Positions 1,227 through 26,078 of a stretch of DNA of 36,506 bases are shown here, in pieces (the first letter of the stretch is position 1; the number at the start of each line of letters is the position of its first letter). Under the pieces are notes generated by a model. The model searched no databases and was not told the origin of the DNA. It was given only the letters and a program-made list of their open reading frames with translations. Source of the stretch: a virus; IMG/VR virus record IMGVR_UViG_3300029319_000175, positions 1-36,506 of that record; one strand, written 5' to 3'. Both the position numbers and the translations under genes were made by a program.

Positions 1227-1577
1227 CCCCTAAATTACTGAAAAATAATAAAAAATTATTAAAAAAGGGTAAAAAATAATAAAATTATAGCGGGATTGCA
1301 TACAAGTATACGTATACCCCCCGTGGCCCCCGCGCACCCGCGCAAAACCTTATATTTTTCTATCTCCTTTTTGGAGACTTTGCCGATTGAACCCGACTAA
1401 TACCCCAAACCTACACACTGCACCTATGTCACATCGCGCACGCGCACGCGGGGTTTTACTTAAATACACTTTTTTTACGTTCGTTGGGGTGGGGTGGGCG
1501 TGCAATACAAGCGAGGCAATCCCATTACATATTCTGGATTGTGTAGAGCAACCAACACGCTAGACATTATTCAGAAC
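1227..1577. other. Non-coding, repeat-bearing region between convergent units
   Basis: No supported gene lies here. Bases 1227-1290 are almost pure A/T (short AATAAT/ATTATT dyads). A perfect 12-bp palindrome, GTATACGTATAC, follows at 1306-1317. Next come a tandem 8-mer CCCGCGCA (1329-1344) and a CGCGCA hexamer array (1435-1450). One copy of the ATACACTTTTTTTACG motif is at 1464-1480. An AT-rich, easily melted block beside GC-rich repeats resembles a replication origin or packaging region, but nothing here proves either. Confidence 0.4.
1464..1480. repeat. ATACACTTTTTTTACG motif, copy 1
   Basis: Exact ATACACTTTTTTTACG plus a following T, in non-coding DNA. Other copies are at 3926, 3952, 4858 and 5119. 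Confidence 0.6.
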
Positions 1578-1604
1578 AAAAAAAAGGCCCCAGCAACGGG
1601 GCCT
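1578..1604 (-). terminator. Intrinsic terminator for the left minus-strand cluster
   Basis: Read on the minus strand, AGGCCCC (1598-1604) pairs with GGGGCCT (1585-1591) around a six-base loop and is followed by a run of eight T (1578-1585). It lies 25 bases after the stop of the 1629-1853 gene and closes that transcript. Confidence 0.85.
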
Positions 1605-1628
1605 AAGTTTATTCTGGAGGGTTGTTGT

Positions 1629-1853
1629 TTAAGCTGCGGTGCAACTTGGGTATTTAATGTGATTAGTCTCAATTACCATGTCGTCGAGCGGCTCGCAACC
1701 ACGCTCCACAAAGCAAGTTAAACGAGTGCGCGTCCCAGTCTTATCTTCCGCCGTAATATTCACAACGGTAAAACCATCATGGTTTGCGGATGAGTCAAAC
1801 ACCTCACGAGAGATGGTGATGTCTGTGACGTGATGAATAGATAACTTGTTCAT
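1629..1853 (-). CDS. Hypothetical 74-aa protein
   Basis: The ATG at 1851-1853 follows AAGGAAA with suitable spacing. The product begins MNKLSIHHVTDITISREVFD and has alternating hydrophobic and polar residues through residue 50 (TISREVF, FTVVNITAE, RTRLTCFVE), suggesting a small beta-rich fold. Two Cys (C47, C70) do not form a recognisable metal site. It is the last gene of its cluster, followed by an intrinsic terminator, and lies 12 bases after a 30-aa membrane peptide gene. No family is recognised. Confidence 0.7.
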   Translation of the reverse strand: MNKLSIHHVTDITISREVFDSSANHDGFTVVNITAEDKTGTRTRLTCFVERGCEPLDDMVIETNHIKYPSCTAA

Positions 1854-1865
1854 TAGTTGGTTTCC

Positions 1866-1958
1866 TTAAATGTCTTTGTTGAACTCATGCGCGATCCATA
1901 CGAAGATCCCGCAAGCGATGAAAGCAAGGCTTAGAATGATCCAATCACTTAATACCAT
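1866..1958 (-). CDS. 30-aa single-pass membrane peptide
   Basis: The frame reads MVLSDWIILSLAFIACGIFV and then WIAHEFNKDI. Residues 6-23 are a continuous hydrophobic helix, so this is a tiny inner-membrane peptide. Its ATG overlaps the TGA of the preceding gene (TGATG), and AAAGGTG lies at a usable distance upstream, which supports real, coupled translation. Such peptides in phages can be holin accessory or superinfection-exclusion factors, but no specific role can be claimed. Confidence 0.6.
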   Translation of the reverse strand: MVLSDWIILSLAFIACGIFVWIAHEFNKDI

Positions 1959-2242
1959 CACGCTGCACCTTTGTAAGGGCGAAGATCCCAATCTTCGACT
2001 TCGTTGATATCTTGCCAATCATCAATGCCGCAGGCTTCAAAAAACTTATCGGCATCATAGCGGGGATTGTCTAAGCGAAATACGTTGTGAAAGTCTACCG
2101 CCACATCTCTCAGCGCAACGCGGCAAGCGCCGTCAATTTCGATGTCGTCAACATCCTTGCTGTTGTCGTACTTGTAGTTGAAAAGATTGGTTCGCAGTAC
2201 ATACGCCACAGTCTCGAAGTGCTGTTTTGTGTATTTAGGCAT
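1958..2242 (-). CDS. Hypothetical 94-aa acidic protein
   Basis: The frame is open further upstream, but the start chosen is the ATG at 2240-2242 because TAGGAGA precedes it and because the longer form would run through the terminator hairpin at 2268-2297. The protein (MPKYTKQHFETVAYVLRTNL...) has a helical N-terminus and many Asp and Glu residues (DDIEIDGACR, FEACGIDDWQDINEVEDWD). Small proteins opening with this KQHxExVAxxLR pattern are familiar among phages of marine bacteria, but their function is unknown to me. It overlaps the following membrane-peptide gene by one base. Confidence 0.75.
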   Translation of the reverse strand: MPKYTKQHFETVAYVLRTNLFNYKYDNSKDVDDIEIDGACRVALRDVAVDFHNVFRLDNPRYDADKFFEACGIDDWQDINEVEDWDLRPYKGAA

Positions 2243-2267
2243 TAGGTCTGTTCTCCTAATTAAGGTT

Positions 2268-2297
2268 AAAAAAAACCGCCCCCCGTGAAGGGGACGG
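2268..2297 (-). terminator. Intrinsic terminator inside the left minus cluster
   Basis: On the minus strand CCGTCCCC (2290-2297) pairs with GGGGGCGG (2276-2283, one U-G pair) and is followed by eight T (2268-2275). It separates the 77-aa gene from the three genes downstream, so those are expressed only by read-through or from an unseen promoter. This would set a step-down in expression. Confidence 0.8.
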
Positions 2298-2327
2298 CTT
2301 ATTATTAGTCTATATAGGCTAAACCAG

Positions 2328-2561
2328 TCAACTAGTTTTTTCAGACAGGCTTTCCGCACCGCCTCTCACGGCAAGCGCACTCTTAGCAAGCTCCTCGATT
2401 ACCAAAGACTTGCCACCTCTCCCACCATACTTCTGCATGGCGCTGGGGGATTGGCTAGCCATACGAAACTGGATCTCCGCGATAGCGTCTTGCGCGTCTT
2501 GCGACAAGAATATTTGAGACCCGCCATTGCTGGTTGTGGTTTCTTTTTTCTTAGTAGCCAT
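2328..2561 (-). CDS. Hypothetical 77-aa protein
   Basis: AAAGGAAA precedes the ATG at 2559-2561. The N-terminus is basic and Ser/Thr rich (MATKKKETTTSNGGSQ) and looks disordered. It is followed by one or two helices (AQDAIAEIQFRMASQ, SLVIEELAKSALAV) with a Gly-rich turn (KYGGRGGK) between. This layout, a flexible basic tail plus short helices, resembles small DNA-binding or antitoxin-like proteins, but there is no clear ribbon-helix-helix or HTH signature, so this is only a suggestion. It is followed at once by an intrinsic terminator. Confidence 0.7.
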   Translation of the reverse strand: MATKKKETTTSNGGSQIFLSQDAQDAIAEIQFRMASQSPSAMQKYGGRGGKSLVIEELAKSALAVRGGAESLSEKTS

Positions 2562-2576
2562 TAATCGATTTCCTTT

Positions 2577-2657
2577 TTAGTTAAAGATAAAAACAGCCGC
2601 GCAGATAAACGCGATTACTACGCAACACTTATACGCAAGTAAAATAAAGTTTTCTAT
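2577..2657 (-). CDS. Candidate 26-aa membrane peptide with AUA start
   Basis: Directly after the DUF932 gene stop there is an excellent ribosome site (GGGAGGAGGAGC) followed by ATA (2655-2657) and 25 more sense codons ending in TAA just before the next gene's ribosome site. The product would be MENFILLAYKCCVVIAFICA followed by AVFIFN, a hydrophobic transmembrane helix. No ATG, GTG or TTG is available in this frame near the site. AUA is a very rare start codon, so the call rests on the strong ribosome site, the gap it fills and the membrane-like peptide. Confidence 0.35.
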   Translation of the reverse strand: MENFILLAYKCCVVIAFICAAVFIFN

Positions 2658-2670
2658 AGCTCCTCCTCCC

Positions 2671-3738
2671 TTAGTTGATTGACTGCCAAGCGGGACCGGA
2701 CATAATTAGCCACAAGCCCCGCGCACGTTCCATTTGTTCATTTAGCGTGTAGCCGCCGTTATCAGTCTGGATCATGTGAATAGACTTCCTACCCAGCGTG
2801 TGAGTTTTCTCCTCGCCGTTAATCTCGAAGGTGCGACTATCGTGAGTATGAGTAGCGTAATGGGTAAGGACATTGTACAAGGCCCATTTGTTTTTACCCA
2901 AACCGCCACCTTGTGAGTAGTCGCGGCTATACTCTTCCCACAAGTCATAAAGCGCGTGAAACTTCTTTAAATTAACCGACTCTTCACGTTCAATACCGTG
3001 TGCTTTTTCCCGCTCTAGTTTCTTCCGTCCCACAGTTTCTTTGGGACAAATGATCGTAAGAAAAGCGCCAGCTTTAGCATCGCTAACGGGGGTATTTTTC
3101 CAAACCTTGAACCGCTCTACATTTTCGCGGAATGTTTCAAACACGGTATTGGCGGTGCGAAGTAGGCTAGCCGCATCAAAATGCTTAGAGTGTTTCACCT
3201 TGTTGTACACCGCCTTGTCGCCACCAAACACCATTGAGTTCTCGCAGTAAGAACGATACGCCCCGGCAAATTGCTGGAAAGCCCATTTCGAATTAACTGA
3301 ATTGATCTGATCCGAACGACAGTAAACCATGTCGCCACCGCCGGTCATGTCGTGTGCTTCGTCCAAATACTGAATAGAGCGTTTAGCCTTCATTCCAAAG
3401 TCTGTGTACTCGTCACGCACTAAAACATTGTCAGTGGGGAGATTACTTTCCCTTAAAATGTCAGCATGTTTGCCAAACAAGTCTACATGATTTTCTAATG
3501 TGTAGGTGGCGGAGACCGCGCTGGTATCTGCGAGACTCCCATCATGCATATAACGGAGCGCCTTACTGCCCACAAGCTCTGTTCCGTCAGTATCAAACAC
3601 TGAGTCTTTGTACACCTCAAGCGGCGCAAAAAAGTCTAGATCAAATATATTGTCATGCTCTCTAACGGCGGACGCGGGAACTTGTCCCGTCGCGTTGATT
3701 GCGATCTGTCGCGGGTTAACTTCTATAACTTGGTTCAT
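2671..3738 (-). CDS. DUF932-family phage/plasmid protein, 355 aa
   Basis: The sequence resembles the DUF932 (phage/plasmid-like) family, with the region WALYNVLTHYATHTHDSRTF followed by a C-terminal helix. Members are common in phages and plasmids and their biochemical function is not established. The frame is open to 3777, but MNQVIEVNPRQ (ATG at 3736-3738) is preferred: AGGAAA lies upstream and the promoter-like -10 at 3773-3778 would start RNA near 3766, inside the longer form. Codon use is less AT-rich than in neighbouring genes (many GCG, GGC), which may point to separate acquisition. It heads the transcript that ends at the terminator 2268-2297. Confidence 0.8.
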   Translation of the reverse strand: MNQVIEVNPRQIAINATGQVPASAVREHDNIFDLDFFAPLEVYKDSVFDTDGTELVGSKALRYMHDGSLADTSAVSATYTLENHVDLFGKHADILRESNLPTDNVLVRDEYTDFGMKAKRSIQYLDEAHDMTGGGDMVYCRSDQINSVNSKWAFQQFAGAYRSYCENSMVFGGDKAVYNKVKHSKHFDAASLLRTANTVFETFRENVERFKVWKNTPVSDAKAGAFLTIICPKETVGRKKLEREKAHGIEREESVNLKKFHALYDLWEEYSRDYSQGGGLGKNKWALYNVLTHYATHTHDSRTFEINGEEKTHTLGRKSIHMIQTDNGGYTLNEQMERARGLWLIMSGPAWQSIN

Positions 3739-3772
3739 TTCTGGTTTTCCTATGTGAATTAAAAACGGGAGA

Positions 3773-3801
3773 CCCATACAGCATATTTAAGGTAGTGTCA
3801 A
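3773..3801 (-). promoter_or_regulatory. Sigma-70-like promoter upstream of the DUF932 gene
   Basis: TTGACA (3796-3801), a 17-base spacer and TATGGG (3773-3778) on the minus strand. The upstream bases GCAGATTAAAAAAGT are nearly identical to those above the promoter at 4715-4743, which argues that both are genuine. Confidence 0.5.
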
Positions 3802-3828
3802 ATACTTTTTTAATCTGCACAATATAAA

Positions 3829-3873
3829 TCCGGCGGGAGCAAAGAACAGGGAGGAAACTTGGCCCCCGCCGGA
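3829..3873. repeat. Perfect 9-bp GC-rich inverted repeat
   Basis: TCCGGCGGG (3829-3837) and CCCGCCGGA (3865-3873) enclose 27 bases. It sits between the 4001-4528 gene and the DUF932 promoter. On the minus strand it is followed by ATTTATATT rather than a clean T run, so it may be a weak terminator or a protein-binding site. Confidence 0.5.
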
Positions 3874-3925
3874 GAGGTGCAGGGAAGGAGAACCAGAAAA
3901 CCCCGCACAATCTATGGAGTAAAGA

Positions 3926-3967
3926 ATACACTTTTTTTACAAGTGTAAACGATACACTTTTTTTACG
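3926..3967. repeat. Tandem pair of ATACACTTTTTTTACG motifs
   Basis: ATACACTTTTTTTAC occurs at 3926-3940 and again at 3952-3966 (the second continues with G), a 26-bp period, in the gap upstream of the DUF932 gene. The joint also forms ACACTT...AAGTGT dyad symmetry. Further copies are at 1464, 4858 and 5119. Confidence 0.7.
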
Positions 3968-4000
3968 GTAAGTACCGCAACACGTCATCCCATGCTAACA

Positions 4001-4528
4001 TTATGCAGCTTCCCACTGTGCATACCAGTGTGGTATGTCACGGTTTTTCCAATCAGCGAACTTGGACTTCTCACCTATGTAGTATGACCTGTAAGCTAAT
4101 ACAGTATCGTCAAGCGATGCCGAGTTTGGATTACATTTGTACTCGTCAGGCATACACTGAGGTGGCGGTGAAGTTAATCCTGTAAGAAGTGTTTTCTTTG
4201 GTATGTTATCAGGTGAATAGTGTAGCCACTCTAGTGTAGCTGCTTTGTGTATCTTGCCATACCTATGCGTGTACTCTATTCCTAACCATGCCCACAAGTC
4301 CGACAAGTAATTGTAGTTACCACGTCCTAGTCTTGCCCACGCCGTTGAGGGGTGGTTCTTGTAGGCAATCTCATACAATCCACGCTCATCACCAGCCTCA
4401 TCACCATCTATTATTCTGTGTGCAGTAGATAGTATCTGTGCGTACTCTAGCACCATTTTAATTACATGTTTGTTGCAATGCATTTCTGCAGCAACCTTTG
4501 GGTTCTTATCTAAATAGAATATATTCAC
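4001..4528 (-). CDS. Conserved phage protein of unknown function, 175 aa
   Basis: The start chosen is the GTG at 4526-4528 (VNIFYLDKNPKVAAEMHCNK), because GGAGGAA precedes it and it overlaps the upstream gene's TGA (GTGA). The opening NIFYLDxxPxxAAxxxCxKHVxKMxLEyAQxLSTAHR is a pattern I recognise from many phage proteins annotated only as hypothetical. Other conserved-looking stretches are NHPSTAWARLGRGNYNYLSD and a C-terminal YRSYYIGEKSKFADWKNRD. The clustered His, Cys, Lys and Trp residues suggest an enzyme or nucleic-acid binder, but this is not proven. It is co-translated with the 54-aa gene from the promoter at 4715-4743. Confidence 0.75.
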   Translation of the reverse strand: MNIFYLDKNPKVAAEMHCNKHVIKMVLEYAQILSTAHRIIDGDEAGDERGLYEIAYKNHPSTAWARLGRGNYNYLSDLWAWLGIEYTHRYGKIHKAATLEWLHYSPDNIPKKTLLTGLTSPPPQCMPDEYKCNPNSASLDDTVLAYRSYYIGEKSKFADWKNRDIPHWYAQWEAA

Positions 4529-4689
4529 TCTTGTTCCTCCACATAAGCCTCTATAAAGCACCACGCACTCTCGTAAGCATGGTCCCAGTCTGAACATTCA
4601 CCAGTTTCTACCGAATGATCTGCAAGATTTTTTGCCCAATGATCTAAACTAGGCTCGTGGTCTATAGGCAAATCTAATTGCTCTAACAT
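4525..4689 (-). CDS. Hypothetical 54-aa acidic protein
   Basis: The ATG at 4687-4689 follows ACGGAGAACC. The product, MLEQLDLPIDHEPSLDHWAK and onward to EAYVEEQE, is strongly acidic with several Trp and His residues and no metal motif. Its TGA overlaps the GTG start of the conserved 175-aa gene by four bases, which supports translation. A promoter-like site lies 26 bases upstream. The family is unknown. Confidence 0.65.
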   Translation of the reverse strand: MLEQLDLPIDHEPSLDHWAKNLADHSVETGECSDWDHAYESAWCFIEAYVEEQE

Positions 4690-4714
4690 TTTGGTTCTCC
4701 GTTATGAGATTTTG

Positions 4715-4743
4715 GTCCTAGCATAAACAGACGCAGGGGTCAA
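4715..4743 (-). promoter_or_regulatory. Extended -10 sigma-70-like promoter
   Basis: Minus strand: TTGACC (4738-4743), a 17-base spacer ending in TGC, and TAGGAC (4715-4720). The TGC directly before the -10 fits an extended -10 promoter. It shares TGCTAGGA at the same spacing with the plus promoter at 6296-6324. Confidence 0.5.
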
Positions 4744-4765
4744 TAACTTTTTTATTCTGCTTAGA

Positions 4766-4945
4766 CTAATCCTCTACGTTTTCTACCAGCGGTCCTAAGT
4801 AAGCAACCATGCGGTGGTGATCTACGAGTAAACTGGACAACAATCTTTTTGATATGGTTACACTTTTTTTACGTCCGCCGCCGTCTACAATTTTATGTGC
4901 TTGATGTAGTTCTGACTTTGAAGTCTCTAAACTTATCTGTCTCAC
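4766..4945 (-). CDS. Hypothetical 59-aa protein
   Basis: A GTG at 4943-4945 directly follows the preceding gene's TAA, with GAGGT eight bases upstream. The frame gives MRQISLETSKSELHQAHKIV, then a glycine turn and basic patch GGGRKKSVTISKRLLSS, then VDHHRMVAYLGPLVENVED. The RKKSV residues are encoded by copy 4 of the repeated ATACACTTTTTTTACG element read on the minus strand. Helix, basic loop and helix could bind nucleic acid, but no family is recognised. Confidence 0.65.
   Translation of the reverse strand: MRQISLETSKSELHQAHKIVDGGGRKKSVTISKRLLSSLLVDHHRMVAYLGPLVENVED
4858..4874. repeat. TACACTTTTTTTACG motif, copy 4 (in coding sequence)
   Basis: TTACACTTTTTTTACGT, in which one base differs from the ATACACTTTTTTTACG form. 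It lies inside the 59-aa gene and encodes RKKSV. Confidence 0.6.
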
Positions 4946-5155
4946 TTACTTTACCTCAGTGATAACCCAACGTCCACGTTCTGCTAAGTGAGGAAAACGT
5001 CTAGCCCAATCTTTAGGATAGATACCTAACTCACCCTCATACTTCCATTCCCATCTAACAGTCTTACCGTCATAGGCGCGAGTGCTATACTCAGGCGGCG
5101 GTCTCTTGCTTTTACGGAATACACTTTTTTTACGGTTTACAGTTTTTTCTGACAT
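4946..5155 (-). CDS. Hypothetical 69-aa basic protein
   Basis: The ATG at 5153-5155 overlaps the end of the nuclease gene by 19 bases and follows GGGGAATT. The first 20 residues are very basic (MSEKTVNRKKSVFRKSKRPP); the remainder (EYSTRAYDGKTVRWEWKYEG...) looks like a small beta-strand domain rich in Trp, Tyr and Arg. Residues RKKSVF come from copy 5 of the repeated AT-rich element. It may bind nucleic acid, by inference from charge only. Confidence 0.7.
   Translation of the reverse strand: MSEKTVNRKKSVFRKSKRPPPEYSTRAYDGKTVRWEWKYEGELGIYPKDWARRFPHLAERGRWVITEVK
5119..5134. repeat. ATACACTTTTTTTACG motif, copy 5 (in coding sequence)
   Basis: Exact ATACACTTTTTTTACG at 5119-5134, inside the 69-aa gene, encoding RKKSVF on the minus strand. 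Confidence 0.6.
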
Positions 5156-5445
5156 TTTAATTCCCCAGTGTGTATATTGTAATACACAAGCTCTACTCCC
5201 AGTTTCTTCTGCACAGGACTTAGTTGTCTGTTAATCATTGTACCCGGCTTCCAATTAGCAGACTTAGAACGAAAAGACATAGTTTTAACTTCAACTAATC
5301 TAACATCCTTTGTCTCAGGATTTATAGCTACAAAGTCTACAGGGCCAGTATTGTTAGTTTCGTTATAAACATGGTAACCGTTATCTGCATAGTAACGCAT
5401 CACACCCAGCTTTGACTGTAAACCCTTTTGTTCTTTTACGTTCAT
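5137..5445 (-). CDS. PD-(D/E)XK nuclease, resolvase-like, 102 aa
   Basis: The core GPVDFVAINPETKDVRLVEVKT contains the catalytic pattern D37 ... E52-x-K54 of the PD-(D/E)XK fold, preceded by an N-terminal helix (KGLQSKLGVMRYYADNGYHV) as in archaeal-type Holliday junction resolvases and VRR-like nucleases. The length matches a single-domain nuclease. It probably cuts branched or damaged DNA, but the substrate is inferred. It lies one base after the GcrA-like gene in a cluster of small accessory genes. Confidence 0.75.
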   Translation of the reverse strand: MNVKEQKGLQSKLGVMRYYADNGYHVYNETNNTGPVDFVAINPETKDVRLVEVKTMSFRSKSANWKPGTMINRQLSPVQKKLGVELVYYNIHTGELKCQKKL

Positions 5446-5446
5446 G

Positions 5447-5851
5447 CTAATATCTCACACTGTAATCTTCTACCGCAGACTTGTAACCTTTGCTGGATTT
5501 ACAAGTATCACATATGAACATAACTTTGTGCAACAGTTTTTCTTTTCCACAGCATAGACACTTTTTCACTCTGTACTGATCTTTATTCTTCATACTCTGT
5601 CTTGCTTCTTCTAACTGTTCCACAACTGTGGAAAAGTCTATACGCTCCGGTTTCTTTTTACCTATGTGAGTAAACATTTTACTGTATCTGTTTAATATAC
5701 TTATTACAGAGTTTCTTGTCATGTCCACTCCGTTGTAGCCCCTGTACTCAGGGGACATTACCTCTGCTATCTGACGGGCTGACAAACCACGCTCTCTGCT
5801 TAGTTGAAATATCTTCTCTATAAAATCCTCTGAATGTCTTTTCATACCCAC
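5447..5851 (-). CDS. GcrA-like HTH regulator with C-terminal zinc ribbon
   Basis: Residues 8-55 (EDFIEKIFQLSRERGLSARQIAEVM ... MTRNSVISILNR) match the helix-turn-helix of GcrA-type proteins, with the characteristic LSARQIA and TRNSVI elements. A second module has C98/C100/C101 and C114xxC117 (CLCCGKEK ... ICDTC), a zinc ribbon. GcrA controls sigma-70-dependent cell-cycle genes in alphaproteobacteria, and their phages often carry versions. It may redirect host RNA polymerase or act on phage promoters. GTG at 5849-5851 is preferred (AAGGAG 10 bases upstream); ATG at 5843-5845 is an alternative. It overlaps the zinc-ribbon frame 5748-5960 by 104 bases. Confidence 0.7.
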   Translation of the reverse strand: MGMKRHSEDFIEKIFQLSRERGLSARQIAEVMSPEYRGYNGVDMTRNSVISILNRYSKMFTHIGKKKPERIDFSTVVEQLEEARQSMKNKDQYRVKKCLCCGKEKLLHKVMFICDTCKSSKGYKSAVEDYSVRY

Positions 5852-8338: not shown

Positions 8339-8889
8339 TCACTGTGCTTGACATAGAAACCACAATGGACTTTGAAACATCAAGCTCTTCACCTTATGAT
8401 GGTCAACAGATTGTGTTTGTAGGTTACAGGAGTTTTGTTGAGGACTTATCTGTTGTTGAAACAAATCAACTGTTTTTCTTCCACAACCAATGCGAACCTA
8501 CGCCACATGCTAAAGATAAGCTACAACGTAAATTAGATGAAACGACATGTTTAGTCGGTCATAATCTAAAGTTTGATTTGCAGTGGTTGAGAGAGTGTGG
8601 TTTTAAATACGATATGTTTTTGTGGGATACTATGGTAGCAGAGTATCTACTTAGTAGAGGTGTTAAAACATCTATCAGTCTTGCAGAGTGTGCTAGACGT
8701 AGAGGTTTATCTGAAAAACGTGTAGACCTTACAGAAAAATACATTAAGGATAAAGTATCTTATGAGGATATGCCATCTGATATTGTAAGAGAATATTGCA
8801 TGGCTGATGTAAATACCACATCAGAGCTAGCACATCAACAGCTAAAAGAATTAAAAATGTCTTGGCCTAATAAGGAGAGTCTTGTTTGA
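8335..8889 (+). CDS. Stand-alone DEDDy 3'-5' proofreading exonuclease
   Basis: The three exonuclease motifs are present: D6-I-E8 (LDIETT), D81 in GHNLKFDLQWL and Y154xxxD158 (YCMADV), the DEDDy arrangement of Pol I-type proofreading domains. The 184-aa length fits just this domain. The polymerase gene starts in the overlapping TTGA directly after it and has no exonuclease of its own, so the Pol I-like proofreading unit is split into two adjacent proteins that probably assemble. Split versions are known in some podoviruses. Confidence 0.88.
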   Translation: MITVLDIETTMDFETSSSSPYDGQQIVFVGYRSFVEDLSVVETNQLFFFHNQCEPTPHAKDKLQRKLDETTCLVGHNLKFDLQWLRECGFKYDMFLWDTMVAEYLLSRGVKTSISLAECARRRGLSEKRVDLTEKYIKDKVSYEDMPSDIVREYCMADVNTTSELAHQQLKELKMSWPNKESLV

Positions 8890-10424
8890 AACAAGTAGTA
8901 AAACTGAGCATGGATATGCTAGACGCTCTCATAGACATAGAAAGAGCGGGGATAAAAATATCAAATGAAAAGCTGGCAAAAATTAAAGAAGACTATCAAA
9001 CAGAGTATGATCAGTTGTACAGTGACCTTATGGATATCGCTGAGATTGCTATGGGCGACACTCCAATCAACCTCGATAGTCCTGATGATCGTAGCAAACT
9101 ACTATACTCTAGAGAAGTGGTGGATAAAACTGCGTGGAAAGAAGCGTTCAACATAGGAACTGAGCAACGCGGCCACACTAAAAAACAAAAGCGTAAGACA
9201 AAGATGTCTCCTACAATGTTTAAGGAGACAGTAAAACAATTAGCTCCTGTGTTTCGCAAAACTAGAGGACAAAGGTGCGAAGACTGCGGCGGCACAGGGC
9301 GCAAGAGAAACAGATTAAAGTCTGGAGAACTAAGTAAAAACTATGTGAAGTGTAAAACTTGTGGCGGAACTGGTGTTGTATATGTGCAGTTAAGAGAGCC
9401 AGCAGGATTACGGGTAATACCTCGCGGACCTCAAGATACAGCGGCTGCTGGATTTAGAACAGATAAAGAAACCTTGTCAGAGATACGGCTTGAGCTTGAA
9501 GGTAAAGCAAGAGAGTTTGTAGATAAGTATACACGTTATTCGATGATAAGAACTTACCTTAATACTTTTGTAGATAGCTTGGAGAAATATCAAGATGCTA
9601 GAGGCTTTATACATCCTAACTTTAATCAATGTGTCACCGCAACTGGTAGGTTATCCTCTAGCAGACCAAATTTTCAGAATATGCCTAGAGGCGCAACTTT
9701 CCCTGCGAGAGAAGCTATCGTGTCAAGATATGATGGTGGCTTTATACTAGAAGGTGATTACTCGCAACTAGAGTTTCGTGTGGCAGGTTACCTATCAAAA
9801 GACCCTGTAATATATGAAGAGGTAAAGAGTGGTTTCGACGTTCACTCCTACACTGCTGAGATCATGGGTGTTAGTCGTCAGGATGCCAAGGCCCATACCT
9901 TTAAGCCATTATACGGCGGAGTCCTTGGGACTAATCGTGAGATGGCATACTACTCTGCCTTCCGTAACAAATACCAAGGCGTAACTGAGTGGCACGATAA
10001 ACTACAGGAAGAGGCGGTAACTACAAAACAAATAGCCTTACCCTCTGGTAGGGAATATGCTTTTCCCTATGCAAAGTACACTAGATATGGTACAACTGTG
10101 GGTGCAACATCAATAAAAAATTACCCAGTGCAGGGGTTTGCCACGGCAGACCTACTACCATTAGCTCTCATAAGGCTTCACAAGTCTCTGAAGGCTATGC
10201 AGAAACCAGTGCCAAAAAGCAAAATCATCAACACTGTTCATGACTCAATCATTATGGATGTTCATCCAGATGAGAAGGATTGGATGATTAATTTATTGAA
10301 AAGGAGTATGTTGTGTATACCTGAAGAATGTAAGGAACAATTTGGTATTGACTTTGATATGCCTATAGAGATAGAACTAAAGATAGGCAAAGATTGGCTT
10401 AATCTAGAGGAGCTAGAAATATGA
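8886..10424 (+). CDS. Family A DNA polymerase with DnaJ-type zinc module
   Basis: Polymerase motifs are complete: TATGRLSSSRPNFQN (251-265), motif A D291YSQLEFR, motif B R331xxxK335xxxF339xxxY343G and motif C H452DS. The residue equivalent to E. coli Pol I Phe762 is F339. Residues 131-163 carry two CxxCxGxG knuckles (C131, C134, C156, C159), like half of the DnaJ central zinc domain, inserted before the palm. This insertion is the reported hallmark of HMO-2011-type marine phages. No 3'-5' exonuclease domain is present; it is the preceding gene. Translation begins at TTG 8886 behind AAGGAG, overlapping the exonuclease stop. It replicates the phage genome. Confidence 0.95.
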   Translation: MKQVVKLSMDMLDALIDIERAGIKISNEKLAKIKEDYQTEYDQLYSDLMDIAEIAMGDTPINLDSPDDRSKLLYSREVVDKTAWKEAFNIGTEQRGHTKKQKRKTKMSPTMFKETVKQLAPVFRKTRGQRCEDCGGTGRKRNRLKSGELSKNYVKCKTCGGTGVVYVQLREPAGLRVIPRGPQDTAAAGFRTDKETLSEIRLELEGKAREFVDKYTRYSMIRTYLNTFVDSLEKYQDARGFIHPNFNQCVTATGRLSSSRPNFQNMPRGATFPAREAIVSRYDGGFILEGDYSQLEFRVAGYLSKDPVIYEEVKSGFDVHSYTAEIMGVSRQDAKAHTFKPLYGGVLGTNREMAYYSAFRNKYQGVTEWHDKLQEEAVTTKQIALPSGREYAFPYAKYTRYGTTVGATSIKNYPVQGFATADLLPLALIRLHKSLKAMQKPVPKSKIINTVHDSIIMDVHPDEKDWMINLLKRSMLCIPEECKEQFGIDFDMPIEIELKIGKDWLNLEELEI

Positions 10425-17531: not shown

Positions 17532-20500
17532 CTACTCAAAAGGTGTGTAATCTGGCATTCTGGTTTGTGGCGCAAGATCACCACCAATACCTGCTCTGAA
17601 CGCCATAATATTCTGCCCAAACTGTTGTATTTCTTCTTCTGTATCTAAGCCTGTCTTTTCAGGGTCTTTGCCTTCGTTTATATTGTGAGCTATTGCTCTT
17701 CTTAGTGCTAAATTAAATTTACTGTTTGCCTCTTTTGGAAGCACGTTTCCAGTGCGAAGAATAGAATCCATATAATATAAAAGCTCTGGGTCACGCAAAA
17801 CTGCCTCTAAGTCATTACCTGCTTGCATTCTCAATCTAACTAAAAGAGCTTCAGTTATAACATATCGTGGAGATACCACATTACGATCAACAGCATAGAT
17901 TCGGCTAATCCAACTTGACGGGCTAAGAGCTTTTGTAGAGTAAGCCATGATACCTTCAGGGGCTTGTTGTCTTGAAGCTGCAGAAAGAAATTGAATTGAC
18001 TCAGCAAAATCTGATAATAAACCTAAATAATTCTCTTTCAAAACGCCTAGAGTTTCTCCTTTAAGTTCCGGCGAAACTATACGGACTCTTTTAGGAAGAA
18101 GTTGTTCAATTAATCTTTCATTATTTCTTACAAACTTTGTAAATTCTTCTGGTTTGAAAGCCTCATCTTGAATAACTTGTGCAGAATCATCAGTTTTTAT
18201 TCCAAAAGAATCGTTTCTAACTTTCCGTATCATTCTTTCATAAAATGCTTCTTTAAGTTGTTCAATTAATTCTTCATTTTTTACATTCTTATACTTATCT
18301 TGAGTTTTTAAAGATTGAGCTAGCTCATCAAAAAATCTTGGAAGATCATCAGTTAAAGCGTTGTCTACCCCCCCATACGTATCCATAAATTTTTCTATAT
18401 CTGTAATTTTTTTGTCTATAAACATTGAGGTTGCAGTTATTTTGAAAGCATCGTCACCTAACTCTTGTATTTCTTTTTGCACATCTCTAGTGTTAGAGGC
18501 CAGTATGTTAATTTCAGATCGAGCTTTTTCAAAAGCTTTCTGAACTGCTCCTGAACTTTCAATCAATTTTTGTAAGGACAATTTAAAATCTTCTGACCCA
18601 ACATCTTTGAACATGCCTCCAAGCCTATCTGCTCTACCGTCAAGTAGTGCTAATCTCTCTACAGCTTCAGAGTTTAAAGGAGTAATATTTTTGTATAGAT
18701 TATTTCTTGTATCTGCCATGTTATTGTAACCAGCGATGCCGTTTACATTTAAGTTAGTATTTTTTAATATACTGCTTTGCAACATAGCTGAGTGATTCAT
18801 AGCTGTAAATATAGCCTGTAAGTTTTCACCAACTCTAATATTATTTTTCCTTTGACCTGCCTCTACAACTGTATTAGGAGTAAGAGTATATTTAGGAGCC
18901 TGTAAGCCTACTCTTTCACCAGCAGTTCCAAAATACCTTTCTAAACTTTCAACAAAAGTTTCAAACTCATTTGCATTGCCATACAAAGTCTTGTTAAGAT
19001 CAAATCTCTTAATTAATTCTCCCTCGTTCAACATGCCACCAGCGCGTCCACGGGCCTCATGCACCAATTTCCCGATTGCACTTTCATACATACCACCCCG
19101 AACTTCATCCCTGTATCTGGCCCGTAACGCATCTCGTTTTTGAACTGCAGCCTCTCCTCCCGCTCTTCGTAATTCACTGGTGATGGTTTCGTTTATGTTT
19201 TCTGACAGGTTTAATAATTCTTGTCTGCGATTACCATCAAGATTAGATGCTCTGTTATTTAAACTTCTTCTTAAAAGATCAAGATCATTTAAGTTCCACT
19301 TTAATCCTTCTTTTATCTCTCCTGCTTCTTTCAGTGTATTTAACATCAACCAATTATATATAGGGGCATCTTCTCCAAATTGATTTCTATACTGTTCGAT
19401 GATCTCTGCCCTTGCGATAGGTCCGTTCTCTCCAAGACTTTCAAAGTACTCATCTAATTTTCTTGCAGAGGCCCCTTCGATGGCACCAACCACAGGTCTA
19501 AGATCAGACGGTATAACCTGTTGTTTTGCAAGTTTTTGCATTGTCACCGCTAAATCTTCACCGTAAGATATCTCTGTCCATTTGGCAAAAATATCTCCTA
19601 TAAAACCACTATCATCAATATCAACCTCTATACCTTTGTATAGGTTAGCAAACTGTGCATTAAAAAAACTGTCTTTAGCGTTTCTAACATTCATGGCTAA
19701 TTCAAATAAAGCTTTTTCAGGCTCACCACTTTCAATGTAAGACCTAACTACAGTGTTTGTATTGTCCTCTCTTACTCTAGGAACAGTTACGTTATCTCTC
19801 ATAGTTTCTGCAGTAACAGCGGCAACAGATAAATCTTCATCTTGTTGCCTGACTGCAGACTCAAGTTCACTGACGCCCTGTCTAGCTGCTGCAAGTTGTT
19901 CTTCTGCAACAGAAATTCTAGCATCTTCTCCCGCTCTTTCTACAGTGATACCAGCGTCATCTCTTAATTTTTGAATCGTAGCTTCCATCTCATCCAACGC
20001 GGCTGCTGCATAGGATATATCACCGTCCCTGTCTTTAAAAGATTTTGGGCTATCCTTAAATTGAGCATCTAATCTTTTTAATTCATTATCTATTCTTTTA
20101 ATGACACCGCCTAATGTAGACTCAGCTTGTCTTCTCATTTCTATTAGACCGTTAACAAAATCAAGTAAATCATCATCTCCCTCAATTTGTTTCAACCTTT
20201 GAGGAGTTAGATTATCAAAACCTACTTTAGCTTTGTTAAGAATATCTAAACTTGTCATAGCTAAATTAATGTGTTCTTGTAACTTTTCAATTTTGACTCC
20301 GCCAAGCATTTTTGTAAGAGAAATTTTTGTTGTATCCTGTAATGCCATAAGAGGTTGTAAAGCAACTATAGCTGCAAAACTTGTATCAAAACTGTCAGGG
20401 TCCCCTGTAACTTTTCCCCAATTTGTTCTGTATTTATCTATTTTGTCAAGTTCATCAAGAACATTATCGCTAGCTCCCCCTAATTTTATGGCGCTTGTAA

Positions 20501-22427
20501 TTCGCATAATATTTCTTCTTACATTTTTTGGAGCTATTTTAATTTCGCCAGATTCCTTAACTCCAGAAATATAGTTAGTTTTATTTGCAAAAATAGGCGC
20601 TGTTTGTAGCGCGGCTGTTTGATCTAAAACTATTCTTCTTTCAGGTGGAAATGCTTGTATGGTGGTTTCAATAGCGCGTCGCCCTCTTAACTTTGCACCT
20701 TCCTCTGTTTTTGCTCTGACTGCGGAGGGGGCAAGCCAAGAACTATTCTTTAGCCAAATAAAGGCGTTCATATATGTCTCTCTTACATAACCCTCCAATT
20801 GTAAAGCAGATCTCGGCACAGCCCTTTGACCAGCAATAATAGTTCCTATACCTGCCACAACACTAAAAGGATTGTCAGTGCCTTTATAGTTATTATTTTT
20901 AGTAGCTATGTCATATCCTGCAGCACCTGAAGCAAAAAGTATCTCTGCAACAGCTTCTTCTCTAGTGATGTTGTCATAGATGCCAAATCGCCTACCCATG
21001 TAATTTCTTAAAGCCATGTCCTCCATTTCTTTTTTAGCTGCTAGACGTTCAGCTTTAGACGATTTAGGATTTGACCAAACTTTGTTGTAGTTTTCAACTA
21101 AAGGTTTTAATCTATTTTCCATGACGTTTCTAACGCTTACTTTTCGACCTGTTAGTTTTGAATCCCTTTCCGCTTTAGCTTGTAAAAATTTTCTTTCAGC
21201 CATTCTAGCAGCTTGAAATTCACTTTGAACAATTCTACCACGGGCAAAAGTACCTCTTACATTGTCAAAAGCGTTAGCAACAACACCGGGCAGCGGAAAC
21301 TTACTTACCGATCTACTTTCTACAAAGTCATCAACTAATTTACCAAAACTAGTGCCATCCATTTTAGATATATCCTGTATACCTTTAGTTTTTGCAAATT
21401 CTGACATTTTGTAATATGTTGTATTGCGTAATCCTTTTCTAATCATAGTGACTGCAGCAGCAGGTCCAAAACCTGTCGCAAGGTAATGAGTTAAATAACT
21501 AATAAAGTCTGCATCTGGATTTTTTGTAGAAAGAACTATAGCAGCAATATCTGGAGGTAATTCTAAATCTTCTCTTCTAAGTAAATCAATAACAAAAGGT
21601 CTTAGATTATGTCCAGCAAATACGCCATCACCGTACACTGCATCATCAACTTTTTTAAATCTGTCCACAAATAAAGTAAAAGGATTTTTACTCTGATCCC
21701 CATACATCTCTTTCATATCTTTGTCTGAAAGATAACCAATTTGGTTAACAATGTTACCAACACCCCTACGAAAAGTTCTTCCAACAGCATCTAATGCTGA
21801 AAAAGCAACATTAGCCGTTGTAATAGGTAATTTTGGTAGCTCTGTAAGAGCCATTCCAACACGTTCTACCGTAGGATCTTTAGGAAATTGTTGAGCAAGA
21901 AATACGGCAGCATCTTTTATATACTTCTGAGTATTTTGATCTAAAGGGTTTTTTCCTCTTTGTGAAAAAAGACTATCAAGCTCTCTATAAAAATAGTGTC
22001 CTTGGTTCATTTCTCTTAGAGTTATCTGTCTATCACTAACAGGATCGTAAAATTCTCTATCCTTATTTTTGTCTATAATTTCTCTTATAGATTTAGTTTG
22101 ACCTCTAGTGTCTACAGTTACAGATTCTACATCAACATCAGGCATATCTAATTGAGGAAGTCCAGCAACGTCTGCAGGAGGCAGAGCTTGTTGTTCAGTT
22201 TTTTTAGCTCTTTCTGCTAAAGTAGGTTCTGATGCAGGTGTTTTACTAATCTCTTCAAAAACAGTTTGCTCTAATCCACCACCGTAAAGAACAGGATTGC
22301 GAGGATCAATAAAACTACGCGCAGTCACAGGGGAGCCTACGCCAATATCAGATTGTGTTTGTAAAAATTTATTTTCTTCTTCTGCGTCAGGCATATCTAA
22401 TAGAAGATCAACAGTTATATTACCCAT
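17532..22427 (-). CDS. Giant virion or ejection protein, 1631 aa
   Basis: This is the largest gene. The protein opens MGNITVDLLLDMPDAEEENK and has long helical stretches, including predicted coiled coils near residues 820-860 (EEQLAAARQGVSELESAVRQ) and 1080-1130. No transglycosylase, peptidase or other catalytic motif could be seen. Podoviruses such as T7 carry one protein of this size (gp16, 1318 aa) that is injected into the cell to form a DNA translocation channel; the late, minus-strand position after tail genes and beside two other large helical proteins suggests an equivalent ejection protein. This assignment is by size, composition and position only. Confidence 0.75.
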   Translation of the reverse strand: MGNITVDLLLDMPDAEEENKFLQTQSDIGVGSPVTARSFIDPRNPVLYGGGLEQTVFEEISKTPASEPTLAERAKKTEQQALPPADVAGLPQLDMPDVDVESVTVDTRGQTKSIREIIDKNKDREFYDPVSDRQITLREMNQGHYFYRELDSLFSQRGKNPLDQNTQKYIKDAAVFLAQQFPKDPTVERVGMALTELPKLPITTANVAFSALDAVGRTFRRGVGNIVNQIGYLSDKDMKEMYGDQSKNPFTLFVDRFKKVDDAVYGDGVFAGHNLRPFVIDLLRREDLELPPDIAAIVLSTKNPDADFISYLTHYLATGFGPAAAVTMIRKGLRNTTYYKMSEFAKTKGIQDISKMDGTSFGKLVDDFVESRSVSKFPLPGVVANAFDNVRGTFARGRIVQSEFQAARMAERKFLQAKAERDSKLTGRKVSVRNVMENRLKPLVENYNKVWSNPKSSKAERLAAKKEMEDMALRNYMGRRFGIYDNITREEAVAEILFASGAAGYDIATKNNNYKGTDNPFSVVAGIGTIIAGQRAVPRSALQLEGYVRETYMNAFIWLKNSSWLAPSAVRAKTEEGAKLRGRRAIETTIQAFPPERRIVLDQTAALQTAPIFANKTNYISGVKESGEIKIAPKNVRRNIMRITSAIKLGGASDNVLDELDKIDKYRTNWGKVTGDPDSFDTSFAAIVALQPLMALQDTTKISLTKMLGGVKIEKLQEHINLAMTSLDILNKAKVGFDNLTPQRLKQIEGDDDLLDFVNGLIEMRRQAESTLGGVIKRIDNELKRLDAQFKDSPKSFKDRDGDISYAAAALDEMEATIQKLRDDAGITVERAGEDARISVAEEQLAAARQGVSELESAVRQQDEDLSVAAVTAETMRDNVTVPRVREDNTNTVVRSYIESGEPEKALFELAMNVRNAKDSFFNAQFANLYKGIEVDIDDSGFIGDIFAKWTEISYGEDLAVTMQKLAKQQVIPSDLRPVVGAIEGASARKLDEYFESLGENGPIARAEIIEQYRNQFGEDAPIYNWLMLNTLKEAGEIKEGLKWNLNDLDLLRRSLNNRASNLDGNRRQELLNLSENINETITSELRRAGGEAAVQKRDALRARYRDEVRGGMYESAIGKLVHEARGRAGGMLNEGELIKRFDLNKTLYGNANEFETFVESLERYFGTAGERVGLQAPKYTLTPNTVVEAGQRKNNIRVGENLQAIFTAMNHSAMLQSSILKNTNLNVNGIAGYNNMADTRNNLYKNITPLNSEAVERLALLDGRADRLGGMFKDVGSEDFKLSLQKLIESSGAVQKAFEKARSEINILASNTRDVQKEIQELGDDAFKITATSMFIDKKITDIEKFMDTYGGVDNALTDDLPRFFDELAQSLKTQDKYKNVKNEELIEQLKEAFYERMIRKVRNDSFGIKTDDSAQVIQDEAFKPEEFTKFVRNNERLIEQLLPKRVRIVSPELKGETLGVLKENYLGLLSDFAESIQFLSAASRQQAPEGIMAYSTKALSPSSWISRIYAVDRNVVSPRYVITEALLVRLRMQAGNDLEAVLRDPELLYYMDSILRTGNVLPKEANSKFNLALRRAIAHNINEGKDPEKTGLDTEEEIQQFGQNIMAFRAGIGGDLAPQTRMPDYTPFE

Positions 22428-22430
22428 GTG

Positions 22431-24770
22431 CTATTTTTCCTCTTTTTGTAAATTTTTTAATCTATCTGATATAGGTATAGGACCGCCTGTTGCTCTAAAC
22501 TGCACATTAGTTTGACCTTCAAAAGCTTTTATGGCGTCCTCTTCATCTGTAAATAAAGATATGTTATTTATAGCCATTCTTCTCAATTCAAAACGTGTGC
22601 GGCTTTTTCTTATTTTTGCAAAAGGTACATAACCAAGGTTCTTTACATGAACCACTTTTACGCTTACAAAATTGTCATTTTGTTTTACATTCTCAGGAAG
22701 TCTATCATATATTTTTGAACTTAAATCATTAGTTTCTCGCGTGTTTCCTGTCAAAACAAAATTAAGGTATTGTGTTTTTAATTGACTATATTTTTGTCGG
22801 TTACTATTTTTAGCGTTAACAAGTTGTCTATATACGTTTACATAATCTGGAGGGTTTACACCACTTTGAGGTTGATACGTTGAAGCCGATTCTCTAAGAG
22901 CGCCTTCTAAAGAAGCCCATAACGGGGGTATTTGATCAGTCGCGTTTTCAGAGGCTACAAAATTAAAGTCATCATCTGTTTCTCCATATTTTCTCCAGAT
23001 GTTATAGCCACCTGCAAAGTTTGAGGTACGATTCTCAATCTTATCAACTGCACGTCTAAAAGAAATCGTGCTGTTAAAGGATGGAAAAGCTTCTCTTATG
23101 AACTTGTATTGTTGATTAGCAGCTATGTAATCTCCAAAGTCTACAGGTAAACCTGTTGAACTAGGACGCGCAGTTACATATCCTTCAAGGCTCATAAGAT
23201 TTTTAAGAGCCATTCTTCTAATAGCATCAATGGTTGCAATTTGCATCCCAGTGCTAGAAAATGAGCTAGCTAATGCAGCTTTCATGTTCTCTACGTCAGC
23301 GTTTGATATTTTATCTGCACCAGTTTGCACAATCTGCGCTAAAGCAAAAGCTACTATTTGATTTAAAGAATTAAATACAGCACCTGCCTCGGTAGCGTTC
23401 AATTGTTCAAGATCTCTCCCTGCAAGACCCATTAATCGCGCTTGCGCTTCACCATACATTCCTGCATATTCTGATGTAAATTTACTTGTATCTATAAAAT
23501 CACCTAATATTTGTCCAAGCCCACCGACCTTTAATCTTAATTGTTGTAAAAAGTTTCCACCAACACCAATACCTTGACCTCTAAAGTCTTCAAGAATTTG
23601 TTGCATATTGCCAAGTAGGTTAACAACTTTTCGATTAGCCTCTGCTGATCTCTTTCTATCAACAAATTCTTTTTTACCTGCTGGGTTTCTAGATTTTTGA
23701 TCTCTATAATATTGAGTCGCCTCTCCGGGTAATAATCTTGTTATAGGAGACATCGTTCCAGCTTGATCAACTGCTTGTTCTTCTATTACATCTTGACGAA
23801 GAGTAGTGAGTGAGAATGCTCTAAAAAGATTGGAAACTTGAGAAGCTGCAGCAGCTTGGTTTGCTAACGGCTGAGATTCTACATAACTGGCAAGCGCGTT
23901 ACCAAACGCTTTTCTTGCTTCAGACGTAGAGGGTTTTGTTTCGTCTAAAATATCAGCAGCATAATAGTTTAAGGGGGTTCCATCTGAGCGTGTTAGAGGT
24001 TTAGTAAGAACATCTAAAAGTTCTTCAAAAGTATCAGCGTTTCTTGCGCCTTGACTTAGTTTAGATTTAGTCTTTTTATTCCACAAAGCTGCTAATCTTT
24101 GAGCGCCGACTTTTACACTTTGATCCGTGCTGTTTTCATATTTTTTAATTATGAAAGCTCCACTTTTATTTGATTCTTCTTGTGGAGGTTGATCTGGAGT
24201 TGGCTCTTGATTTACAGGAGTATTATTTATACTTGCCACACTTGGTCTAAGAGCTTGAGCAGGTAAAATTGGTGGTGCGGTAGGATTAATTCTTCTAAGC
24301 GCGTCAAATATGTTAGCAAATTTTTTCTCTGTGGGCATGGTTATCCCCTCTGCACCCTCAGACATTTTTATTGTTTGTGTTTCATCACTTTGATGAGCTT
24401 TAAAAATAGACCTTACCCGTGTATAAAAATCTGATAAAGTCCCCTCTCTTTGCATTCGCTTTACAAAGTCATTAAAAGTATTGGGGTCACTTTGTATGCC
24501 AGCGTTTAACGTGGTAAGATACTGCAGATTGTAGCCTTTAGAACCCTCTTGAAGGTCAGACTGAAATGTGTAAGGCCCAGCACTTTTTGTGTTTCCGCCC
24601 TTTTTTAAAGTAGCTTCGTAATTTGCAAGTCTTTTCTTACTCTCAAAATCCAACTTGTACTTCTCAGCTAGCGCAGCTTTTTCAGCGTCAGTCTTAGCTT
24701 TGAAGTCAATCATATCCTCGCCAGCTTCAGCGGCACCTTTAACAAACGCAGCAAACAAAGGTAAAACCAT
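22431..24770 (-). CDS. Large internal virion or ejection protein, 779 aa
   Basis: The protein starts MVLPLFAAFVKGAAEAGEDM and continues with a charged helix (DAEKAALAEKYKLDFESKKR). It is mostly helical with Ala, Gln, Asn and Ser, has a proline-rich stretch around residues 170-200 (PTAPPILPAQALRP ... QEPTPDQPPQEES) and lacks enzymatic motifs. It lies four bases upstream of the giant 1631-aa gene. The set of three adjacent helical large proteins parallels the T7 ejection proteins gp14-gp16. Function by analogy only. Confidence 0.7.
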   Translation of the reverse strand: MVLPLFAAFVKGAAEAGEDMIDFKAKTDAEKAALAEKYKLDFESKKRLANYEATLKKGGNTKSAGPYTFQSDLQEGSKGYNLQYLTTLNAGIQSDPNTFNDFVKRMQREGTLSDFYTRVRSIFKAHQSDETQTIKMSEGAEGITMPTEKKFANIFDALRRINPTAPPILPAQALRPSVASINNTPVNQEPTPDQPPQEESNKSGAFIIKKYENSTDQSVKVGAQRLAALWNKKTKSKLSQGARNADTFEELLDVLTKPLTRSDGTPLNYYAADILDETKPSTSEARKAFGNALASYVESQPLANQAAAASQVSNLFRAFSLTTLRQDVIEEQAVDQAGTMSPITRLLPGEATQYYRDQKSRNPAGKKEFVDRKRSAEANRKVVNLLGNMQQILEDFRGQGIGVGGNFLQQLRLKVGGLGQILGDFIDTSKFTSEYAGMYGEAQARLMGLAGRDLEQLNATEAGAVFNSLNQIVAFALAQIVQTGADKISNADVENMKAALASSFSSTGMQIATIDAIRRMALKNLMSLEGYVTARPSSTGLPVDFGDYIAANQQYKFIREAFPSFNSTISFRRAVDKIENRTSNFAGGYNIWRKYGETDDDFNFVASENATDQIPPLWASLEGALRESASTYQPQSGVNPPDYVNVYRQLVNAKNSNRQKYSQLKTQYLNFVLTGNTRETNDLSSKIYDRLPENVKQNDNFVSVKVVHVKNLGYVPFAKIRKSRTRFELRRMAINNISLFTDEEDAIKAFEGQTNVQFRATGGPIPISDRLKNLQKEEK

Positions 24771-25418
24771 TTACTCCTCCATTTCCATGAAAGGCTTCTC
24801 ATCAGCAAACATAAGTTCTTCTCTCATGGACTCATCTATAACTGGCATCTCAGTGGCTGCGGATAGCTCACTCAAAAACTGTATGCCCTCTTCTGCCCTA
24901 TCAAATGCTTCTGGGTTGTTCTGTCTCATCAGTGTTAGTAGAGTGTCAGAATCCATACCTTCTCCCTGTTCTTTTCTTTTTACTGTGTTGTCACTAAATA
25001 CTTTCACTGGTATATTTTCTTCTACAGCCATACTGGCTAAGTGCATGAGAACAGGAAACTTAATTAACTCAGCTAAATCCACACTCCATTGCCCCTCTGT
25101 AAAACCACCAAAAGATATTGTATTGACAATTTGCTCTAACGGTATGCCAGCCATCATTAGCTTTAGCATTTCATCCCTGCTTTGCTCATCTTTTTCTATC
25201 TGGTCAACAACATGGAGAAAACAATCTTCTACAGTGTTATATCGCGCAGGTCTTTCCCACGCCCACTTTCCCGGCTCATCAGTAAAAGACTGACCCGGAA
25301 TAGGAACATCTAACTTGTCTCTCTGTTCCATAGTCCTTGTAGAAGGATCATCCATTGGCTCCTCATCCATACTAGGATCATAATTGTCCAACAGTGCTTG
25401 ATAGTCTACTTTTTCCAT
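24771..25418 (-). CDS. Conserved virion-region protein, 215 aa
   Basis: The pattern DVPIPGQSFTDEPGKWAWERPARY, followed by MLKLMMAGIPLEQIVNTISF, then GGFTEGQWSVDLAELIKFPV, resembles a protein found in structural regions of T4-like and T7-like marine phages (opening PGQSLT ... PW). The N-terminus is acidic and the C-terminus ends FMEMEE. It is directly adjacent to the ejection-type genes, so it is probably a minor virion protein or assembly factor. No enzyme motif is present. Confidence 0.7.
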   Translation of the reverse strand: MEKVDYQALLDNYDPSMDEEPMDDPSTRTMEQRDKLDVPIPGQSFTDEPGKWAWERPARYNTVEDCFLHVVDQIEKDEQSRDEMLKLMMAGIPLEQIVNTISFGGFTEGQWSVDLAELIKFPVLMHLASMAVEENIPVKVFSDNTVKRKEQGEGMDSDTLLTLMRQNNPEAFDRAEEGIQFLSELSAATEMPVIDESMREELMFADEKPFMEMEE

Positions 25419-25427
25419 TATATTTTC

Positions 25428-26078
25428 CTATGTGAGTTTTGAGTAAGCTCTACGTCTTCCAGAGGTAGTTCCTATATTTCCTGACGGTATGGTTACAGAG
25501 GGGCTTTTTGGAATATTGCTTAACACAATTGGTCGGACATCAATTCCTGTTCTACGAACTTGACCATATACAGTATCTAAATTTCTACGTTGGATACCAT
25601 CAAATCGTGTCTGTGTTGCGCCCTCATTGCTCTGCCCAAAACCGGGAGGAATAGACCCCGATTGTGCCTGAGCAAAACGCTCTCGATCTCGTCTGTCTCT
25701 TGGCCCACCAAAGGCAGGATTCATTGCTTGATTTGAAGCAACTTGACCAACAGTCTGTGCAATACGTGCTAAGGTGCTAAGGTAATCATCTTCAGCCGTT
25801 GGTGTGTAAAGGTCACCAAATTCTTGATCTGACATGTTAAGAAAACTTATGCCAGAATCCTCGCCGTATATGCCCATATCTCTATACTGTGCAGGAGGGG
25901 TTCCAACTTCCACGTTAGGCGGTAATTCACTTACATTTCCTATAAAATCTGCCGCACTACGGCCTAATATTTCTTCTGGAGCGTAAACCTGTTGTACTCC
26001 AAAATCATCTTCTTCTTCAAAATACGTTTCTTCATAAAGCTCATCACCTGAACCCCATAATTCCCATAAATCAGCCAT
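25428..26078 (-). CDS. Hypothetical virion-region protein, 216 aa
   Basis: The first 60 residues are highly acidic (DLWELWGSGDELYEETYFEE then EDDFGVQQVYAPEE). The C-terminal third is basic and rich in Arg, Ser, Thr and Gly (GNIGTTSGRRRAYSKLT). The middle is low in complexity with Gln, Asn and Gly. Such a charge-split, flexible protein could bridge virion parts or bind DNA. It is in the late operon, nine bases from the next gene. I recognise no family. Confidence 0.65.
   Translation of the reverse strand: MADLWELWGSGDELYEETYFEEEDDFGVQQVYAPEEILGRSAADFIGNVSELPPNVEVGTPPAQYRDMGIYGEDSGISFLNMSDQEFGDLYTPTAEDDYLSTLARIAQTVGQVASNQAMNPAFGGPRDRRDRERFAQAQSGSIPPGFGQSNEGATQTRFDGIQRRNLDTVYGQVRRTGIDVRPIVLSNIPKSPSVTIPSGNIGTTSGRRRAYSKLT

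Follow-up and report, generated by a model that had tools for sequence, protein, structure and literature searches.

A repeated 14-mer at two non-coding slots of an HMO-2011-like marine podophage: putative operator-like sites with switched sequence

A short motif that recurs within 3.7 kb of a phage genome, partly inside and partly outside genes, raises the question of whether it is a DNA site read by a protein or an accident of coding sequence and simple composition. HMO-2011-type phages are a dominant marine group and, to our knowledge, the control of their transcription and replication is largely undescribed. The window, as we call the whole 36.5-kb stretch of DNA analyzed here, is judging by its sequence an HMO-2011-like marine podophage, of which 36.5 of about 53 kb are covered. 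HMO-2011-type phages are defined by a family A DNA polymerase with a partial DnaJ domain and two CXXCXGXG repeats (PMC9038755), and a polymerase of this kind is encoded at 8886-10424 of the window, with the repeats CEDCGGTG and CKTCGGTG. Similar to Puniceispirillum phage HMO-2011 and HMO-2011-type phages, the window carries the DnaJ-zinc polymerase, primase, helicase and ribonucleotide reductase in the shared order. It differs from the HMO-2011-type isolates in that its polymerase is just 35–48% identical to its best phage matches (isolates HTVC033P, CRP phages and HMO-2011) and in the leftward direction of its small early genes. From about 6.3 kb onward the replication genes point rightward, and the small early genes extend leftward to about 1.6 kb, where a terminator (1604-1585) follows. 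Beyond the corresponding gap (slot A, below), the leftward strand of relatives carries late genes, with small- and large-terminase-like ORFs among them as judged by eye.

Two other regions of the window were noted. Two divergent perfect sigma-70 promoters (TTGACA, 16 bp, TATAAT) are found at 417-502, and the leftward one probably serves late genes. The large virion genes at 17532-22427, 22431-24770 and 25428-26078 are largely or wholly unmatched in four related contigs in which the flanks are mostly well conserved; 17532-26078 looks like a replaced virion module, perhaps an ejection-protein module.

Motif copies in the window

The 14-mer GTAAAAAAAGTGTA (TACACTTTTTTTAC on the strand used in the preliminary description of this DNA) occurs in five exact copies that span 1464-5134 and are limited to 1.5-5.1 kb of the 36.5-kb window. 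In a window-wide motif scan all five were on the minus strand, which is the direction of the local genes. The preliminary description had listed five 16-bp copies at 1464, 3926, 3952, 4858 and 5119 and had found the motif nowhere else. These coordinates proved correct: the match is 16/16 at 1464, 3952 and 5119, with one terminal mismatch at 3926 and 4858. The sequence given there, ATACACTTTTTTTACG, is complementary to the coding direction, and the minus-strand site reads CGTAAAAAAAGTGTAT. The absence elsewhere was also borne out, as allowing up to two mismatches to GTAAAAAAANTGTA returned just three weak, scattered sites in the rest of the window. Markov models of order 1, 3 and 4 predicted 0 to 0.02 occurrences when up to one mismatch to the 15-mer was tolerated, where 5 were observed, and dinucleotide shuffles predicted 0.67 (up to three mismatches) against 6 observed. 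The five copies are a non-homogeneous set: three are non-coding (1464, 3926 and 3952), and the copy at 4858 is older and coding.

Non-coding slots A and B in relatives

Relatives were retrieved from IMG/VR by polymerase and DUF932. The 26-bp tandem pair had been described as preceding a DUF932 gene, and it does lie upstream of a Pfam PF06067 match, in a region that we term slot B:

3952-3967, minus strand: site B1, first copy of the 26-bp tandem pair
3926-3941, minus strand: site B2, second copy of the pair, 119 nt from a conserved TGTNNAGAT box (start to start)
3830-3908, minus strand: a pair of conserved RNA hairpins that separates site B from the DUF932 promoter region
3773-3801, minus strand: likely sigma-70 promoter of the DUF932 operon (TTGACA, 17 bp, TATGGG)
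2671-3738, minus strand: DUF932 gene, downstream of site B (PF06067, E=3.8e-13)

A 12-codon ORF, which looks like a shortened version of a small gene of the relatives, has its stop codon (3963-3965) within site B1. The hairpins show compensatory base changes among relatives and belong to a strong fold (z = -4.6 for 3793-3930); a family search gave no significant match to known RNA families. At the candidate promoter, TTGAC is kept in relatives, the -10 box of the window is weak, and a stricter promoter scan omits it. The DUF932 gene itself has no match in phage isolates (tblastn, E 1e-5).

Slot B of nearly all relatives holds two or three tandem copies of TTGTCGGCC with a period of 16–17 bp, located directly 3' of the small-ORF stop codon and upstream of the hairpins, the TTGAC box and DUF932. 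In the 50-53-kb relatives, TTGTCGGCC is limited to this slot. The distance from the last TTGTCGG at B to the conserved TGTNNAGAT box is 107–108 bp in 9/13 relatives and holds even where the hairpins in between have unrelated sequences; in the remaining four it is 113, 113, 101 and 81. TTGAC occurs 20–27 bp beyond the box in relatives. Among the relatives recovered, GTAAAAAAAGTGTA is present at slot B only in the window and L067/L002. A third form, AATTTGTAAC ... AATTCTGTAAC, occupies the slot in L074/L010 and is perhaps related to the other motif forms.

The closest comparison is provided by L090, which has TTGTCGGCC at slot B and is on the same contig as L006, with a polymerase 97% identical to that of the window. 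Because so close a relative keeps TTGTCGGCC, the change at slot B is either recent or was gained by recombination. The preliminary description had held that loss of the motif in close relatives would speak against a DNA site. Taken literally, the motif is indeed absent from slot B of this relative, but the loss consists of replacement by another repeated motif, which points in the opposite direction. As a separate observation, L084 (8561-8710) and L040 (5784-5900) carry a third TTTGTCGGCC copy, with a tRNA-Arg(TCT) gene and a DUF932-like promoter after it, a layout of site, structured RNA and promoter as if it were a repeated cassette.

The remaining non-coding copy is found in the early/late gap:

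1464-1479, minus strand: site A, a single non-coding CGTAAAAAAAGTGTAT flanked by the early-leftward terminator (1585-1604) and by the late leftward genes
1292-1507, minus strand: slot A region, flanks kept in relatives, interior replaced in the window

The conserved blocks of slot A are TATTGCACGC (1498-1507), GGGCCAC (1323-1329) and TATGCAATCCC (1292-1302), and a conserved AT-rich block adjoins at about 1230-1290. All TTGTCGG-type contigs that span the gap carry TTGTCGG at a position 52–53 nt after TATTGCACGC and, though the sequence between drifts, about 165 nt before GGGCCAC. In the window, GTAAAAAAAGTGTA is instead 29 nt after TATTGCACGC. The new motif at slot A is represented by one record, the window; L067 and L074/L010 end before it. 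From TTGTCG to TATTATG the distance is 105–109 bp, both in TTGTCGG-type contigs and in the distant L091 and L093. No RNA fold was detected at slot A (z -0.65 to +1.8), so an RNA element was rejected here and site A appears to act as DNA. Slot A has no homology in isolated phages.

Dif-like (XerCD) sequence, ..TGTATATTATGxATA.., is also present at slot A in L089 (13065-13092), L091 (5733-5760) and L084 (12384-12411) and absent from the window. HMO-2011-type subgroups without an integrase might exploit host XerCD.

Coding copies C and D

The two remaining copies lie within genes:

4858-4873, minus strand: copy C, inside the small gene 4766-4945, encoding DGRKK(S/T)V
5119-5134, minus strand: copy D, in the variable, repeat-rich basic N-terminal tail of gene 4946-5155

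As claimed previously, both are read in frame as RKKSV in two different small minus-strand genes. The conclusion drawn from this, that a motif kept across coding and non-coding sequence reflects selection on DNA, is not supported. DGRKK(S/T)V stays conserved in proteins as little as about 56% identical, and the DNA of copy C is found in relatives of both site types, including L089, L070, L073 and L075, which have TTGTCGG slots. Because the copy tracks a conserved peptide that TTGTCGG-type relatives share, it is probably incidental, a chance product of what the gene encodes. At KKSV, codon identity reaches 0.87, compared with 0.57 on average over the gene, and ranks 203 among 4586 windows. Lysine codons leave little room for change, and the evidence for constraint on copy C as DNA is suggestive at most and too weak for a DNA-site claim. 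Copy D is present only in the window and its sister contig L067/L002, and L074 has its own AAAAANTCTGTAAACC repeat at this place in the basic tail.

Candidate functions and binding factors

We consider it likely, with a probability of about 0.75, that the locus contains a real cis-element whose sequence was switched. The main evidence is the replacement of both slots by an identical new 14-mer in a single phage, which argues that the sites are recognized as sequence; parallel replacement at A and B supports a sequence-specific recognition site. The selection on a DNA site proposed in the preliminary description is plausible for the three non-coding copies, whose syntenic slots in relatives hold repeated, position-conserved TTGTCGG. 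Additionally, the elements keep a distance of about ten helical turns, a regularity that suggests a nucleoprotein arrangement and would fit transcription, replication or recombination alike.

Our leading interpretation, which we put forward tentatively and at somewhat less than even odds, is that the non-coding copies are operator-like sites governing leftward transcription. Site A (1464) and the tandem B sites (3926/3952) would be asymmetric targets of a putative sequence-specific DNA-binding protein, placed at the boundaries of leftward transcription units. TTGTCGG(CC) would specify both slots in most relatives, and the lineage of the window and L067 would have switched to GTAAAAAAAGTGTA. 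We infer that the protein would be a transcription regulator, operator- or stoperator-like in its mode of binding, and that one factor would read both A and B. Tandem B would act on the DUF932 unit, some 120 bp downstream of it, and A would mark the boundary between the early-leftward unit and the late leftward region. Several findings stand against this interpretation: the slot A evidence comes from one record, in which the spacing is altered (29 vs 52–53 nt); the nearest strong leftward promoter (444-417) is about 1 kb away from site A; none of the early genes distinguishes the types through an evidently altered specificity; and the exact match of A and B to the older coding copy C has no explanation.

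The tandem direct repeats at B would also suit iteron-like replication-initiator sites, with A as the origin, B as an auxiliary cluster and an exchange of initiator-site specificity in the window lineage. Slot A is non-coding, its conserved blocks keep near-constant spacing despite drift, and it adjoins the AT-rich block; moreover, the sole match to the tandem motif in the genome collection was an iteron-like array beside Rep-/ParA-like genes on a Lactococcus contig, and iteron switching is documented in the PLE satellites that parasitize phage ICP1 (PMC8263062). However, the copies are divided between A (one) and B (two or three), 2.4 kb apart, and the features of an iteron origin, tandem repeats at B and the AT-rich block beside A, are not together. 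No initiator gene was recognized in the window, and neither primase nor helicase tells the types apart (95–98% identical in L006). We regard initiator sites as a serious but less likely alternative. That the copies share no function at all, C and D being coding and A and B being AT-rich coincidences or local duplications, we consider improbable. The conserved peptide does explain C, D lies in a repeat-prone basic tail and the composition of the motif is simple, but the chance expectation is at most 0.02 and the motif falls in both slots where relatives hold another repeated motif.

Slot A could alternatively be a site for site-specific recombination or resolution, TTGTCGG being accessory to a dif-like (XerCD) core about ten helical turns away and the module having been replaced in the window lineage. 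In its favor are the 105–109 bp between TTGTCG and TATTATG and two further findings: in 8 contigs, nothing else along the whole contig matches the dif consensus better than the dif-like sequence at slot A, and TTGTCGG and the dif-like core are jointly missing from the window and L257. The dif match is modest, however, at 19–21 of 27 positions in TTGTCGG-type relatives (with none in slot A of the window), when unrelated matches reach 18–20; slot B is without a dif-like core and no recombinase was found in the window. Such a role seems to us improbable, although we take it as a serious rival. It is a long shot that an abundant marine phage lineage carries an early/late-gap module of two elements, TTGTCG and, about ten turns away, dif-like TGTATATTATG, with extra TTGTCGG repeats before DUF932, and that this module was exchanged as a whole in the window lineage. 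If so, the exchange would be expected when a nuclease, satellite or competing phage selects for changed recognition specificity.

Two other candidates were rejected. Tandem TTGTCGGCC also occurs in unrelated contigs, and ends of IS21-like or other transposons were considered; these occurrences are mostly coding ADKA-type repeats, with no transposase nearby where checked. Promoters for a phage RNA polymerase were discarded given the restriction of TTGTCGGCC to slot B in the 50-53-kb relatives, and no such polymerase was seen. Separately, the TACACTTTTTTTACTAATA and TACACTTTTAGTACTTCTAAG arrays of the Lactococcus contig (L256, 3559-3881), beside ParA-/Rep-like genes, are probable plasmid iterons whose resemblance to the phage motif is likely convergence. 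One phage contig (L001, 6224-6662) has three adjacent short tandem arrays (17, 17 and 15 bp), one of them consisting of about seven copies of TTTACACTTTTTTTACA.

All window genes were compared with TTGTCGG-type contigs to seek a type-specific factor. The only early genes strongly divergent in L006 were 4946 and 5137, beside copy D, and the exonuclease-like 8335, and the changes in these three do not look like altered DNA specificity. A helix-turn-helix/zinc gene (5447-5851) is disfavored as an allele-specific binder, being 94% identical in the TTGTCGG-type L006 and having weak structure matches only. The product of 5137-5445 (102 aa) has a predicted PD-(D/E)XK fold like that of Hjc resolvase and the homing endonuclease I-Ssp6803I (best Foldseek E 1.2e-3); as a binder it is unsupported, the types differing by scattered substitutions only. 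No repressor family was matched among the window genes scanned, in a record that covers 36.5 of about 53 kb. The factor may be encoded in the missing part of the genome or by the host.

The nearest known cases are stoperators and PLE iterons, and we liken the window sites to both and assign them to neither. Cluster A mycobacteriophages (L5, Bxb1) have asymmetric stoperators of ~13 bp that mostly share one orientation with respect to transcription, many of them away from promoters, and whose sequence varies among related phages in step with the repressor (PMC6550527). The window sites are likewise asymmetric and in one orientation relative to transcription. In contrast, they number 3–5 rather than up to about 30 spread over the genome, the motif is replaced entirely in the window lineage rather than varied, and there is neither a repressor gene identified among the window genes scanned nor evidence of lysogeny. 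PLE iterons, at origins targeted by ICP1 Odn, are similar in that they are repeated targets of an initiator and have been exchanged in sequence among close relatives (PMC8263062), but they are three semi-palindromes of ~30 bp at one origin with a known RepA, and the window has short asymmetric sites in two places.

Syntenic non-coding sites that switch between phages with 97% polymerase identity offer a direct handle on the factor that reads them. If confirmed, they would represent a natural experiment in which a phage changes the specificity of its control or replication sites, in at least two places at once.
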